Below, piece after piece: positions 24,571 through 33,181 of a stretch of 64,000 nt of DNA. Source of the DNA: an uncultured Pseudomonadales bacterium (GTDB lineage Bacteria > Pseudomonadota > Gammaproteobacteria > Pseudomonadales > Pseudohongiellaceae); NCBI GenBank assembly GCA_938091935.1, contig CALKNV010000001.1, positions 62,001-126,000 of the forward strand, written 5' to 3'. The notes under the pieces are model-generated. The model had not been told where the DNA came from. It saw nothing but the letters and a program-made list of their open reading frames with translations, and did no database searches. The position numbers and the translations under genes are program-made. Every line of letters begins with the position of its first letter. The first letter of the stretch is position 1.

Positions 24571-27500
24571 CTAACGAGTTCCCAGGTAACTTCTTAGTCT
24601 GGGAGGAAACACACGCTTGGTAAGCATCTGCTGAAACTGCCACTGCTCGTCGGCACTGACTTCCCTGAGAAAATGTGTTTCCCCCGACTCCATCAGGGCA
24701 ATCGGAATACCGCCTCGATACAGCACGCGGTTACTGGCAAGGCGCGGTAACTTTCGATTGGGCATGGTGAGATTAATGAGATTGGCAGGATCTGTAGCCG
24801 CCAGGCAATAGAACGGTGCTGTAGCGGCCGCTTCCCGACTGCGCTTGAATTTTCGCAAGCTGTCGACAGTTTCCGGAAAAGCGAATTGTTCACCCCCTAC
24901 ACCAGCAACAAATCGTCCGCCACGGACTTTGCCTCGGAGCTCCATTTTTCTTAGCGTCACCAGTAGGATACGCCATGGCGGCGCCAAGGTTTCCTTATCA
25001 ATGAGCGCACGAAAAACCACACCCCAACGTTGTAGATAGAGCAACGCCAGGCGCTCGAGTTGTTCTTCGTCCAGCGCATCCCAGCGGGAAGGCTTTTGCT
25101 GCCCAGCCGCCTGCTCGAAAGTATCAAGCAGACTCCAGCGACCCGCATCCTCAACCCCAAACATCGCTTTACGACCCCGACGTTTATGGCTTGTCGGTTT
25201 CTTGTGATTAGGAGTGAGCAGCGCGCGCAGACCGGTGAATGAATCACTGGAAACCTGGCCAAGGCTCACCAACTCGGCCAGCCCTTCTTCCAGCTGGGTT
25301 TTCAGCAGACCGGTCCGACTCTGAACCTGGTCAAAAAAGCTGGCTCCATGTTGTGCCAGATCCGATGCGATACGGGCAGCGCTTGCACTGGGTGCTGCGA
25401 CTTCGCCTTCTCCCAGCTGCGCCTTCGCGAGCGCTTTCCAGATATCCAGATTGGATCGGGCCACCAGACTAATGGGTGTGCTCTTGACCGGCCCAGCATT
25501 GCGTTTTCTCTGCAGCGGCTGGTTTTGCCGACGTTGATTTATCAGTGGCAGCACATAGCGACCCCACATGACCCTGCCACTGATACAGAAGACATCTAAC
25601 CAGTTCGGGTCGTAGTTGGGAATGCGTGCCGGATAGATATCTGACTCCCAGCTAACCGCAGGTGCTGAAATGCCATCGAGCAAATTAAGCATGTTCTGCA
25701 AGCGCGTCTGGCCATCTAAACCCGGTTCAGTGCTTCCATCTGATTGTTGAATCGGAAGTAGCTGCTGATGATCAAACAGATATTCTGTAAAAGTCTCCAG
25801 GGAAACCGGTTTAATTGCCTTGCGATGTTGATCAATGGTGTAGCGATGAATTCGCTGCAGCAGCCTGCGCTCGCACCATTCAATCGCTGCGCTTTCTGCA
25901 GAAAGCATAGCCGCGCCGCTGATTGGAGTGAACTGTCCCTGAAAGGCAAAGCCTTCCACCTCAAGCGCTGTCAGAGCAAAGCTAATGTCAGATTTATCGA
26001 GCTGCAGTTCATCGGCCAGCTGCTCAGCCGTTACCGGCCCAAGGCAGTCCAGTCGCCCACGCACGATTTCACGCAGCGCATCTTCTTTTTCCCAACTCTC
26101 CGCCTGCAGAAATTCTGGTAAAGGTATTGTGGCTAGCTGATCTCCGCATAGCGCAATAAAGCGCGGTAAGTACTCAGTTGCAATCCAGACTGGTTTTTTC
26201 AATTGGCGCAGTAGCACGATCCGGCCACTGTCCACCAAAGCCTGCTGCCAGCGCACGTAATCCCCTTTCTCGAATTCAGCCGTTGTGAGGTAGGCTGCGG
26301 TCATCAGGGCGTCATGAAGTTCCTCTGCATTGCTGATATAGGGCCAGGCTTCGTCCCGCACCCGTTGAATCGCTTCCGCATCCAGTAGACTGAAATCCTT
26401 GGCTTCAGCCGGGTCTGCCCAACTCCGGTTACGTATCGCATTGGTACGACGTTCTTCAAACGGCGCATCATCCAGGAATGCATAGGGTCGCGCATTGATG
26501 ATTTCCTGCGCGAACGGTGACGGCTCACGCAGATCTTTGGCGACAAGCGTCAGCTTATCGTTCTCGATCGCATCAATGAGCTGTTCCAATTCATCAATAT
26601 CCATGGCTTCAGTTAAGCAGTCATGAATAGTCTGATTCACCAGTGGATGATCCGGCACATCCCGTCTGCCGGTGATGTTTTCCTGACAGGCGATTTGATC
26701 CGGAAACACGTGCGCTACCAGATCTTCCGCATCCATGCGTTGAAACTGCGGTGGCACACGTTTGCCATTGCGATTGCGCTGCATAGCCAGGGAACGGGTT
26801 GCATTCCAGCGCCACCTCACCTCAAACATAGGTGCATCCAGCATGGCCTGTATCAAAGTATCACGCACCGTTGCAGTCTGCAGATATCGATAAACTTCAT
26901 CTAACGGGAAGCTGTGCACCGAGCCTAATGAGATAACAATGCTGTCCTCATTAGCTGCAGCTTGCAGCTCAAAGTTGAAGGACTTACAAAAACGTTTACG
27001 CAGAGCCAGCCCCCAGCCCCGATTGAGACGGCTGCCGTAAGGAGAATGAATTACTACATGCATGTCACCAACTTCGTCAAAGAAACGCTCCATGACCACA
27101 GTGTCCCGGGTTGGCATCACACCCAGCGCGTTCATGCCACTCTGCAAATATTCGACCATCTGCACGCTGGCGCTACGAGGCAAGGCAATTGTATCTTCTA
27201 GCCATTGCACTGCAGCGTTTGCCGACTCGTTGATAAGCAGCTCGGCGATCTGATTACGTAATTTTGAAACTGCTTGGGATAGCTCTTGTGTGCGTCCTGG
27301 CCCCTCTCCAAACCAGAATGGAATTGTAGGCTGCATACCCTCCGCATCACGAACCCGCACCTTTAGCCCATCCACACGCAGCAGTTGCCAGGCGTGAGTG
27401 CCGAGAGTAAAGACATCTCCGGGCAGAGCCTCAAGCGCAAAATCCTCATTCAAGGTGCCGACAACAATATCTTCCGGATCCAGCACGACCTGATAATCAA

Positions 27501-29073
27501 ACATGTCAGGGATCGCACCGCCGTTGGTTAGCGAAGTGAGGTTAGAGCCGCGGCGTGCTCGTACCTTGTTATTTATCATATCAAGATGCAGATGAGTGCC
27601 ACGTCTCCCTCTTCGAGTCGTATATCCTTCAGCGAGCATTTTTACCAGTGTGTCAAACTCTTCACGGGCCAGGTCACGATAGGGATAAGCGTTGGCAAAA
27701 AGCTGGAAGAGCTGATCCATATCCCAACCAAGAAAATCCTGGTCGCCATCACCTGCTATCACTGGCGATGACACCTCGGCAACAATTTGCTGGGCGAGAA
27801 TATCTGCAGGTTTCTCTGGCATGATAATCCGATCCAGCTCACCCTCCCTGATGCCTTGCAGCAATGCGCTGGCTTCCACCAAGTCATCACGCGTAAGGGG
27901 AAACAGAATCCCCTTGGGGGTTCCGTGCACGGAGTGACCGCTGCGGCCGACACGCTGCAGGAAAGTTGCAATACTTTTTGGAGAGGAAAACTGCACCACC
28001 AGATCTACCGACCCGATATCGATGCCGAGTTCCATTGAAGCGGTCGCCACCAGCACCTTCAGGTCGCCAGCCTTTAAGCGCTGTTCGGCGTTGTGACGAT
28101 GATCTTTACTCATGCTGCCATGGTGCGAGCACACGCAGCCTTCACCCAACCGATCACTCAAGGCCAGAGCCAGGCGCTCCGAGAGTCTGCGAGTGTTTAC
28201 AAAAATCAGCGTCGTCTCGTGGCTATTAATCAGCGTCACGAGCCGCTCATAAAGCTCCTCCCAGACCTCATTACTCATCAGGGCGCTCAGTGGTGAACCA
28301 GGCACTTCGATGCGTAGATCCAGCTTGCGCCGGAATCCAGAGTCGACGATTTCACAGTCTACTGAATCATCGCTACAGTTAGAATTACCAACCAGGTAGC
28401 GCGCCACCATGTCGATAGGCTTCTGGGTTGCAGACAGGCCAATGCGCTGCAGATGCTGGCCGCTGCAGCTAAAACAAAGTTGCTGCAGTCGCTCAATCGA
28501 TAGGGCCAGGTGTGACCCGCGCTTGTCTCCCAGCATGGCATGGATCTCATCCACGATGACCGAGGACACAGTTGCCAACATTTTGCGGCCACTGGCGCTG
28601 GTGAGCAGCAGATACAGCGACTCCGGCGTCGTTACCAGGATATGGGGCGGGTTCTTCGCCATCTTCTGCCGCTCATTAGCGGGCGTGTCGCCTGTTCGCA
28701 CCCCAATTCTAATATCCACCGGTGGCAGCCCCAGCAAATGCAGTTGCTCAGCAATGCCATCCAGCGGCATATCCAGATTCTTGTGAATGTCGTTACTCAG
28801 CGCTTTGAGGGGTGAGACATAGAGAACATGGACACCGTCCTCCAGCTGGTTGTGCAGCCCTTTATGAAGTAGCTCATCAATGGCGCCGTAAAATGCGGCC
28901 AGCGTCTTACCGCTGCCGGTAGGGGCCGAAATCAGGGTGTGGCGCCCGGCTTTAATAGCAGGCCAGGCCTGGGCTTGGGCCGGCGTGGGCTCGCCAAACC
29001 TGGCACTGAACCAGTTCCGGCAGGCCGGATGGAACTGGCTGAGAGCCTCTATTTGTGCCTGATCCTGAGTCAA
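24571..29073 (-). CDS. lhr: Lhr-family large DEAD/DEAH helicase
   Basis: 1500 aa; ISAPTGSGKTLAAF Walker A, VIVDEIHAMLGDKRG motif II, QRVGRSGHSVHGTPKG motif VI, Lhr-type long C-terminus. Confidence 0.95.
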   Translation of the reverse strand: MTQDQAQIEALSQFHPACRNWFSARFGEPTPAQAQAWPAIKAGRHTLISAPTGSGKTLAAFYGAIDELLHKGLHNQLEDGVHVLYVSPLKALSNDIHKNLDMPLDGIAEQLHLLGLPPVDIRIGVRTGDTPANERQKMAKNPPHILVTTPESLYLLLTSASGRKMLATVSSVIVDEIHAMLGDKRGSHLALSIERLQQLCFSCSGQHLQRIGLSATQKPIDMVARYLVGNSNCSDDSVDCEIVDSGFRRKLDLRIEVPGSPLSALMSNEVWEELYERLVTLINSHETTLIFVNTRRLSERLALALSDRLGEGCVCSHHGSMSKDHRHNAEQRLKAGDLKVLVATASMELGIDIGSVDLVVQFSSPKSIATFLQRVGRSGHSVHGTPKGILFPLTRDDLVEASALLQGIREGELDRIIMPEKPADILAQQIVAEVSSPVIAGDGDQDFLGWDMDQLFQLFANAYPYRDLAREEFDTLVKMLAEGYTTRRGRRGTHLHLDMINNKVRARRGSNLTSLTNGGAIPDMFDYQVVLDPEDIVVGTLNEDFALEALPGDVFTLGTHAWQLLRVDGLKVRVRDAEGMQPTIPFWFGEGPGRTQELSQAVSKLRNQIAELLINESANAAVQWLEDTIALPRSASVQMVEYLQSGMNALGVMPTRDTVVMERFFDEVGDMHVVIHSPYGSRLNRGWGLALRKRFCKSFNFELQAAANEDSIVISLGSVHSFPLDEVYRYLQTATVRDTLIQAMLDAPMFEVRWRWNATRSLAMQRNRNGKRVPPQFQRMDAEDLVAHVFPDQIACQENITGRRDVPDHPLVNQTIHDCLTEAMDIDELEQLIDAIENDKLTLVAKDLREPSPFAQEIINARPYAFLDDAPFEERRTNAIRNRSWADPAEAKDFSLLDAEAIQRVRDEAWPYISNAEELHDALMTAAYLTTAEFEKGDYVRWQQALVDSGRIVLLRQLKKPVWIATEYLPRFIALCGDQLATIPLPEFLQAESWEKEDALREIVRGRLDCLGPVTAEQLADELQLDKSDISFALTALEVEGFAFQGQFTPISGAAMLSAESAAIEWCERRLLQRIHRYTIDQHRKAIKPVSLETFTEYLFDHQQLLPIQQSDGSTEPGLDGQTRLQNMLNLLDGISAPAVSWESDIYPARIPNYDPNWLDVFCISGRVMWGRYVLPLINQRRQNQPLQRKRNAGPVKSTPISLVARSNLDIWKALAKAQLGEGEVAAPSASAARIASDLAQHGASFFDQVQSRTGLLKTQLEEGLAELVSLGQVSSDSFTGLRALLTPNHKKPTSHKRRGRKAMFGVEDAGRWSLLDTFEQAAGQQKPSRWDALDEEQLERLALLYLQRWGVVFRALIDKETLAPPWRILLVTLRKMELRGKVRGGRFVAGVGGEQFAFPETVDSLRKFKRSREAAATAPFYCLAATDPANLINLTMPNRKLPRLASNRVLYRGGIPIALMESGETHFLREVSADEQWQFQQMLTKRVFPPRLRSYLGTR

Positions 29074-29300: not shown

Positions 29301-29996
29301 ATGGAAGAGTTAAAGCAAGCCAATTTACCTACTCGGGTTCGTGCCCGTTTTCGGTCTTTCTGGCTCGAGAATCGCCAGTTTTTCCTGCTCCTCACTTGTA
29401 TCGTGTTTTTCAAAAGTGCAATCGCAGACTTGAGCTCGATCTCTGGCGCGTCCATGCTTCCGACCTTGTTGGACGGCGATAAAGTGTGGGTCAACAAGCT
29501 CGCCTACGACGTAAAAATCCCCTTCACGGAAATCTCTCTGGCCGAAGTCTCAGACCCGGACCGGGGCGATATCGTCATCATCGACTCGAAACGCGCAGGC
29601 AAGCGTCTGGTGAAGCGCATTGTTGGCGTGCCAGGCGATACCATCTACATGCAGAACAATACTCTGGTTATAAATGGTGTTCCGGCCAATTATGAAGTTC
29701 TGTCCCGTGACGCTGAATCCATTATCATTCAGGAAGAGTTGCCCGATGGCGCCCATCAGGCAAGACTCTCCAGCCGCTATGTCAATCGCTCCAGCCGCAG
29801 CTATGGCCCAACCGTGGTGCCGGCAGACCAGTACTTCGTGCTGGGGGACAACCGCGACAACAGCGCTGACAGCAGAATTTACAGCTTCATACCCCGCGGC
29901 GAGATAATTGGGCGCTCCAGTTCGGTGGTGTTCTCCCTGGACAGCCATAATAACTACCTGCCTCGTGGCGAACGCTTCCTGGCGGAGCTTGAGTAA
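29301..29996 (+). CDS. lepB: Signal peptidase I family protein
   Basis: ISGASMLPTLLDGDKVWVNKLAY, KRLVKRIVGVPGDTI, FVLGDNRDNSADSR. Confidence 0.93.
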   Translation: MEELKQANLPTRVRARFRSFWLENRQFFLLLTCIVFFKSAIADLSSISGASMLPTLLDGDKVWVNKLAYDVKIPFTEISLAEVSDPDRGDIVIIDSKRAGKRLVKRIVGVPGDTIYMQNNTLVINGVPANYEVLSRDAESIIIQEELPDGAHQARLSSRYVNRSSRSYGPTVVPADQYFVLGDNRDNSADSRIYSFIPRGEIIGRSSSVVFSLDSHNNYLPRGERFLAELE

Positions 29997-30117: not shown

Positions 30118-30708
30118 ATGACAAAAAATAGGATTACTGGCACAGGCCTGCCCGGCAGATCACTGCTGGCTCTGGTTCTGTTGGCTGTTCTTCAGGTGTC
30201 GTTGGCACAGGATTATGTCTGGGCACCAGACTTTCCTGTTGGCTCCGCGCTACCTGAGGTTGTGGCTTTAGATCAGAATGGCGAACTGCGTCGCTTCGAT
30301 GATCTAAAAGGTGAGAACGGCATGCTGTTTATGCTCAGCCGTTCTTTTGACTGGTGACCATTCTGTAAAGCTCAGCTCGTGCAGCTGACAGATATTGCAG
30401 ACCAGTTTGAAGCCATGGGCATTTCCGTGGTTGCCATGACATTCGATTCGGTTGAAATGCTGAAGAGCGTCGAAGAAGATCAGGGAATTGAATTTACGCT
30501 GCTTCACGACGAGGACATCACCCACGTTAACCGCCTGGGCATCCTCAATGACATAGATTTTGAGCCTGACCATAGATTTTATGGCGTGCCGCATCCGGGT
30601 ATATTTCTAGTTGATCCTGATGGCACCATTCAGGCGAAATTTGCCGAGGAGGGCTACCGAACCCGACCCGATTTTGCCAATGTGCTGGAAGCAGCGGCAG
30701 AACTCTAA
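30118..30708 (+). CDS. Periplasmic redoxin (AhpC/TSA-like), candidate selenoprotein with Sec at TGA 30355..30357
   Basis: RBS AAGGA and ATG at 30118; ...LFMLSRSFDW[TGA]PFCKAQLVQLTDIADQFEAMGISVVAMTFDS... in one frame to 30708; split by the ORF track into 30097..30357 and 30379..30708. Confidence 0.7.
30362..30392 (+). promoter_or_regulatory. Candidate bacterial SECIS element
   Basis: UCUG-UAAAGC-UCAGCU-CGUGC-AGCUGA-CAGA: 4-bp lower stem, 5' bulge, 6-bp upper stem, 5-nt loop with G second, loop starting 20 nt after the UGA. Confidence 0.55.
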
Positions 30709-30922: not shown

Positions 30923-33181
30923 GTGCTTCCTACTTTGTTATGCTTAAATTCGCTCAGGCGAAATCGACGCCTTGTAGCCTGTGCGATGGCTCTGTTTTTG
31001 TTTGGGTGTCTTTCCATCACACCGGTACTCGCCCAGTCGCGGTTTGAGATTCCCCGTATCACGTCAGCCCCTACTATCGATGGTGAGGTACAGGGTAGTG
31101 AATGGCAGCAAGCCCTATCCATAGAAATCAATATTGAGACTGAACCGGGTGAGAATACAGCTGCCCCGGTGACAACCGAAGGGCTGGTCATGGAGGACGG
31201 CGAAACGCTATATGTCGCGTTTATCGCTCAGGATCCTGACCCAGACCAGATTCGCGCATTTTATCGCGACCGCGACTTGCTCTGGGACGATGACTGGGTT
31301 GCTGTAATACTGGACACCTTTAATGATGAACGCCGAGCCTTCGAGTTTTACACTAACCCCGTTGGTGTCCAGGCGGATGATATTTGGGACGACGTGAATC
31401 AGCGCGCCGACGAAGCCTGGAATGCAATCTGGGATAGCGCAGGCCAAATTACCGATTTTGGATACACGGTAGAAATGGCAATACCACTCAAGCAATTGCG
31501 GTTCACGCCTCAGCAAGGCTCGCAGACCTGGGGCATTAACCTGCGGCGCTACTACCCACGCGATCGCGAAACACAGCTTTCAGACATCCCCATAGATCGA
31601 AACGTGTCGTGCTACCTGTGCCAGGTAGCAAAAGCCAGTGGCTTTGCTGAGCTGGAACCCAGCATGAACCTGATTCTCATTCCTACTCTTGTCGCAGCTG
31701 CCAACGAGACTCGCGATCCGGATAACGGAAAATGGATTAGTGGAGGCATCGACCCCCAGGCCAGTTTCGATGTGCGCTGGGGAATTACGCAAGACACCTA
31801 TCTTAACGCGACCATTAATCCAGATTTTTCCCAGGTAGAAGCGGACGTTGCGCAACTGGATATTAACCAGACTTTTAGCCTGTTCTTCCCTGAGCGACGC
31901 ACATTTTTTCTCGACGGTGCTGATTACTTCGACACTTTCCGTAACCTGGTTTACACCCGCAATATTGCTAACCCAGACTACGGCGCCAAGATTACCGGCA
32001 AAAATGGGCCACACACTTTCGGCCTATTAGCGGCAAATGATGAGACTACCAGCTTTATCATCCCGCGCAGCCTGAGCTCACGTATTGCCAGTCTGGGTGA
32101 GCAGAAGAGCGACGTCGCCATCGCGCGCTACCGCTATGACATATTCCAGAATTCGACCGTAGGTGCCCTGGTAACAAACCGGGAAGGTGATGGTTATAGC
32201 AACCGGGTAAGCAGCCTCGATGCAACCCTGCGCCCCACTGAGCAGGACACGATCTATATTCAGGCCATGCACTCCGAGTCGGAGTACCCCCTGCAAATCC
32301 AGGAACGTTTCAACCAGGCGGCAAATCTCAGCGATTCCAGCACCGTCATTGAATACCAGCATAACGATAGAAATTGGGACTGGCGCTTCGGTCACTACGA
32401 CTGGGGTGAGGACTTCAGGGCCGATCTCGGTTTTATCAATCGCGTTGACTACATCTACCAGGTTGCCACGGTCGGACATACCTGGTGGTGGGGTGGCGAC
32501 AGCTTCTTCAATCGCATTCGTTTCGCCGCAGATTATGATCGCACTGAAGATCAATCAGGTTTGTTGCTGGAAGAAGAAACCGAGTTCTTCCTCAACATGA
32601 ATGGACCGCTTCAGTCTTCGCTGTTCGGCTTGTTTGGCGGCAGCAAGACCTACTGGAATGGCCAGTATTTTGATGAGCAGTTCAACAATCTAAACCTCAG
32701 TTTCGTGCCCCTGCCAAACCTGCAAATAGGCATCAATATGCGGGTCGAGGACGTTGTAGATTTTGCCAATACCCGGCTCGGGCACTCCAGACGCTTTCGT
32801 CCTGAAATCCGCTATCAGTTCGGGCGCCACCTGCAGCTGGACCTGGAGCACACGATTCAGAATTTTGACGTGGATGGAGGCCGCCTGTTTACGGCGAATC
32901 TGACCAACTTCCGCACCACCTATCAGTTTAATAACCGTAGTTTCCTTCGTGTCATCGTGCAGTTGGATGATCGCGAACGTGATCGAGATCTCTACACATT
33001 CCCGGTGGACAGTGTTAGTAAAGAGCTGACCACCCAACTCCTTTACAGCTACCGGGTCAATGCAGCCACGCGCTTCTTCGTGGGCTACTCTGACGCTGGC
33101 TTTCAGGACGACAGCCAGGACTCAATCTACCGGACCAACCGCAGCTTTTTCGCCAAGTTCAGCTACGCCTGGCAACCCTGA
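30923..33181 (+). CDS. CBM9-like/DUF5916 secreted or outer-membrane protein
   Basis: Signal peptide; PRITSAPTIDGEVQGSEWQQA CBM9-like start; DINQTFSLFFPERRTFFLDGADYF and alternating beta-strand C-terminus typical of DUF5916. Confidence 0.82.
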   Translation: MLPTLLCLNSLRRNRRLVACAMALFLFGCLSITPVLAQSRFEIPRITSAPTIDGEVQGSEWQQALSIEINIETEPGENTAAPVTTEGLVMEDGETLYVAFIAQDPDPDQIRAFYRDRDLLWDDDWVAVILDTFNDERRAFEFYTNPVGVQADDIWDDVNQRADEAWNAIWDSAGQITDFGYTVEMAIPLKQLRFTPQQGSQTWGINLRRYYPRDRETQLSDIPIDRNVSCYLCQVAKASGFAELEPSMNLILIPTLVAAANETRDPDNGKWISGGIDPQASFDVRWGITQDTYLNATINPDFSQVEADVAQLDINQTFSLFFPERRTFFLDGADYFDTFRNLVYTRNIANPDYGAKITGKNGPHTFGLLAANDETTSFIIPRSLSSRIASLGEQKSDVAIARYRYDIFQNSTVGALVTNREGDGYSNRVSSLDATLRPTEQDTIYIQAMHSESEYPLQIQERFNQAANLSDSSTVIEYQHNDRNWDWRFGHYDWGEDFRADLGFINRVDYIYQVATVGHTWWWGGDSFFNRIRFAADYDRTEDQSGLLLEEETEFFLNMNGPLQSSLFGLFGGSKTYWNGQYFDEQFNNLNLSFVPLPNLQIGINMRVEDVVDFANTRLGHSRRFRPEIRYQFGRHLQLDLEHTIQNFDVDGGRLFTANLTNFRTTYQFNNRSFLRVIVQLDDRERDRDLYTFPVDSVSKELTTQLLYSYRVNAATRFFVGYSDAGFQDDSQDSIYRTNRSFFAKFSYAWQP

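Follow-up and report, generated by a model that had tools for sequence, protein, structure and literature searches.

The redoxin gene and its neighbourhood

The window, a stretch of 64,000 nucleotides on a contig of an uncultured bacterium of the Pseudohongiellaceae, carries a redoxin gene that starts with an ATG at 30118, ends with a stop at 30706-30708 and is open except for a single in-frame UGA (Table 1). The gene product matched Pfam AhpC-TSA with 78.3 bits and Redoxin with 47.5 bits; no NCBIfam model reached its cut-off, the best one scoring 52 of 140 bits. Around the UGA the residues read ...SRSFDW-U-PFCKAQLVQL..., with the UxxC motif in DWUPFC. The AhpC/TSA domain, a Sec in the UxxC motif and the existence of Cys homologues place the protein among the Prx-like UxxC selenoproteins. 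Its N-terminus is a hydrophobic, signal-like segment, and the product is probably secreted. A signal peptidase I gene lies upstream, a gene for a CBM9/DUF5916 protein adjoins the redoxin gene downstream, and glycine cleavage genes follow on the same side. The Lhr-type large DEAD helicase of 1500 amino acids that is also encoded in the window is an ordinary one. A scan of the window for other read-through TGAs, inspected by eye, yielded candidates by length only, none of them followed by U-x-x-C in a comparable redox domain.

Table 1 Features at the redoxin locus, in window positions
Feature	Position	Strand	Basis
Lhr-type large DEAD helicase gene	24571-29073	-	
Signal peptidase I gene	29301-29996		
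Predicted selenoprotein gene, AhpC/TSA (Prx-like), 196 residues	30118-30708	+	read through TGA; Pfam; homologues aligning on both sides of the UGA
In-frame UGA, predicted selenocysteine, residue 80	30355-30357	+	TGA in 123 genes of the tree set, Cys codon TGC/TGT in 48
5' side of lower stem, UCUG (with CAGA, 30389-30392)	30362-30365	+	present in the window, not conserved
Predicted bSECIS hairpin, 6-bp stem UCAGCU/AGCUGA (30372-30377 with 30383-30388)	30372-30388	+	covariation in Sec homologues; covariance model
Apical loop CGUGC, 5 nt	30378-30382	+	second base G in 111 of 111 distinct UGA segments, third mostly U
CBM9/DUF5916 protein gene	30923-33181	+	

Protein searches of public genomes, together with whole-genome searches, supplied relatives that have either TGA or TGC/TGT at the position of the UGA. 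Once identical segments had been removed, the tree set consisted of 123 UGA genes and 48 Cys genes; 77 distinct UGA relatives served for covariation, 111 distinct UGA segments for a codon-level null, and the 48 Cys relatives for comparison. The homologues align across both flanks of the UGA, and the chosen sequences are free of gaps from this codon through 45 nt downstream. Beyond the order, a draw from the class returned the window's own gene only, and a draw from the phylum gave just seven further matches, none with an internal stop. A scan of viral contigs found no relatives, Rfam had no family matching the hairpin region, and searching the literature for AhpC selenoproteins of marine origin in metagenomes brought nothing.

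Covariation of the stem-loop behind the UGA

The sequence-only reading had proposed a bSECIS-like stem-loop at 30362-30392 (UCUG UAAAGC UCAGCU CGUGC AGCUGA CAGA). Every letter was confirmed in place, including the perfect 6-bp upper stem and the 5-nt loop with G as second base, and the apical loop does begin 20 nt past the UGA, a distance identical in the gap-free aligned homologues. The G and the U following it in the loop would be the expected contact for SelB.

The case rests on the alignment. Among the 77 UGA homologues 97.8 % of the stem cells were paired, against 84.3 % (sd 1.0) in shuffles, none of 500 shuffles being as high; two-sided compensatory cells numbered 76 against 20.6, and the covariation score was 0.432 against 0.157. 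These shuffle controls ignore relatedness, which is covered by a count on the tree and by the Cys set. By parsimony on the protein tree, the UGA form underwent about 30 double compensatory changes (11, 12 and 7 at three of the six stem pairs). With columns numbered from the U of the UGA, pair 18-34 occurs as UA, CG, GC or AU, pair 21-31 as GC or AU, and pair 22-30 as CG or UA. Slid registers paired in 10-42 % of cells, and RNAalifold predicted precisely the six pairs of this stem from the UGA set. With the window sequence in its training set, the covariance model was bound to score this hairpin highly; the informative part of the search of the own genome is the gap between this single strong match (57.6 bits) and the next one (15.4 bits).

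Might the hairpin be a by-product of the peptide QLVQL, whose codons CAG CTC GTG CAG CTG are partly self-complementary, and have no function as RNA? A null with fixed proteins and randomly drawn synonymous codons gave on average about 4.5 of the six pairs, and two of the six pairs are invariant in the UGA set; the peptide thus predisposes to pairing. However, full hairpins with the loop G were present in 100 of the 111 UGA segments, whereas the same null produced 14.5 on average and 24 at most in 500 runs. The codons also change on both sides of the stem, for example to CAG-TTG-GTT-CAA-CTG or CAA-CTC-GTG-CAG-TTG, and in Cys homologues whose peptides are similar (QLQQL, QMIQL) the pairing is not maintained. 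A mere coding by-product is hence very unlikely.

The Cys homologues provide the counterpart that the sequence-only reading had suggested as a check, and the outcome agreed with its expectation: the stem covaries strongly in the Sec form and neither covaries nor persists in the Cys form. In the Cys set the stem was paired in 69.8 % of cells, close to the 68.7 % of shuffles, RNAalifold predicted no pair on the 48 sequences, and none of the 48 had a full hairpin with loop G, the second loop base being G in 17. On the protein tree, parsimony found in the Cys form at most three double changes per pair and many changes that break pairs. Sec and Cys labels were exchanged at the UGA codon at least 4 to 7 times on the tree. 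The window gene belongs to a clade of 44 genes that all carry UGA; its neighbour on the tree is a clade of 26 Cys genes from the same family, so that the comparison of the two forms includes close relatives.

A paralogous redoxin family (L211-L222), with frames of about 400 amino acids, shares both the W-U-x-x-C site and the covarying hairpin with the window gene, in support of a bSECIS; the window's own incomplete genome gave no match to this type of paralogue at E 1e-20. Counting against it is one UGA homologue (L154, genome G1128) in which the conserved hairpin is absent, the downstream sequence reading TCAATT AGCTA ATATTG. L154 has the UGA at the Sec column, is nested among Cys homologues and comes from a selA-positive genome, while its sampled genus mates (g599) have the Cys form and no selA match. 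It is possibly an independent change from Cys to Sec with a bSECIS of its own, or an error.

Since the base pairs are kept by matched mutations in the relatives, the hairpin is almost certainly a selenocysteine-insertion signal.

Folding of the single sequence

In the single sequence the hairpin is weak evidence. RNAfold gave the naked 31-mer a minimum free energy of -9.9 kcal/mol in another register, against -7.7 kcal/mol for the proposed fold, whose stem had a probability of 0.02-0.10 in isolation; the upper hairpin alone reached -6.0 to -6.7 kcal/mol. The region as such lies below an energy limit of -7.5 kcal/mol, but does so in the other register, and the proposed fold does so only together with the lower stem. 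The stability of a 66-nt fold was not above that of shuffles (z -0.06). Hairpins of loose geometry with at least 6 bp followed 133 of 1181 plus-strand TGAs (11 %) and 228 of 1270 minus-strand TGAs (18 %) in the window, and exactly matching geometry was present at four plus-strand and two minus-strand TGAs. In RNAfold, a check named by the sequence-only reading, the hairpin region does not fold preferentially in the proposed register, and the description of the stem-loop as independent structural evidence for the selenoprotein is carried by the relatives, the single sequence adding little. Single-sequence RNAfold can overlook a true bSECIS.

The 4-bp lower stem UCUG/CAGA, described as part of the element by the earlier reading, was dropped: it is paired in 64 % of cells in the relatives, with three two-sided changes, and on this comparison it probably lies outside the element. 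The upper stem-loop of that description is conserved.

Another explanation accepts a real RNA element and takes the register of minimum free energy (UCUGU/ACAGA, AGCU/AGCU and GC/GC) as its functional fold. In isolated window RNA this competing hairpin is favoured by 2.2 kcal/mol, which also counts against the bSECIS reading. Among the homologues, however, the register is paired in 57.7 % of cells with a covariation score of 0.125, the level of shuffles (0.128), and it vanishes when at least the first 6 nucleotides past the UGA are kept out of the folding. Under this treatment, which we take to imitate a ribosome with the UGA in its A site, the conserved hairpin became dominant (P 0.89-0.98). 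We consider the alternative register as functional fold extremely improbable. A more speculative and on balance unlikely idea is a ribosome-gated switch in this lineage, in which the competing hairpin of the naked mRNA would sequester the SECIS until a ribosome arriving at the UGA opens the lower strand and sets the conserved hairpin free.

Selenocysteine decoding and relation to known systems

The window's own genome, a draft assembly of 58 % completeness, contains all components looked for in selenocysteine decoding: selA (574 bits), selB (361 bits), selD (276 bits) and a tRNA-Sec with UCA anticodon (67 bits). In a sample of the order selA was present in all 18 genomes with the UGA form and in 22 of 277 others, and in a sample of the family in 53 of 57 genomes with the UGA form; these counts ignore relatedness. 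The UGA-form genomes that gave no selA match (G1194, G1208, G1214, G1217) are 84-92 % complete, and the gaps are probably due to missing contigs. A pseudogene, or a TGA that is a sequencing error for TGC or TGT, has a negligible probability despite the draft state of the source assembly, as the same codon is TGA in 123 distinct genes of several families and independent assemblies, the reading frame is intact on both flanks and selA is present in the sampled genomes.

We therefore regard it as almost certain that this hairpin serves as the bSECIS of a selenoprotein gene of the Prx-like UxxC type, with the UGA predicted to be read as selenocysteine. Following the Escherichia coli paradigm, the 17-nt stem-loop would stand outside the mRNA entrance when the UGA occupies the ribosomal A site, and the C-terminal domain of SelB would bind it via the conserved loop G. 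SelB would carry Sec-tRNA-Sec, made with SelA, SelD and tRNA-Sec, so that the UGA would be decoded as selenocysteine and not as stop. The product would be a probably secreted oxidoreductase of the thioredoxin fold with a Sec-x-x-Cys active site. The covariation argues for selenocysteine at this UGA, and the usual stop-codon rules would cut the gene short or split it. The deep set of Sec and Cys forms, which comprises 123 UGA genes and 48 Cys genes and yields about 30 compensatory changes by parsimony, is usable as a benchmark for bSECIS predictors.

The SECIS of E. coli fdhF is a small stem-loop shortly after the UGA, with G and U in the loop and a bulged U. The window element is likewise a small stem-loop just past the UGA with loop G and U, but its sequence is unrelated and the six-pair stem lacks a counterpart of the bulged U. 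The published bSECIS model allows a loop of 3-9 nt, an upper stem of 4-16 bp, a spacing of 16-37 nt and a minimum free energy up to -7.5 kcal/mol, with G within the first two loop bases, then U (PMC13188914). The agreement with this model claimed from the sequence was borne out for loop size (5 nt), stem length (6 bp), G position (second, followed by U) and spacing (20 nt). The element differs from the model in that its upper hairpin alone lies above the energy limit, the minimum free energy of the region belongs to the competing register and a conserved lower stem is lacking. The Sargasso Sea survey and the GOS survey (PMC1088965, PMC2398784) include Prx-like UxxC selenoproteins (pfam00578/pfam08534), with which the window protein shares the Pfam AhpC-TSA domain, the UxxC motif, Cys homologues and a hairpin after the UGA. 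With the GOS set, whose subfamilies include Prx-like 1 and Prx-like 3, the match was made at the level of kind (PMC2398784). As loop, stem, G and spacing agree with the bSECIS model and the protein is of the surveyed kind, signal and protein type are both of known kinds, and this gene is a further case.
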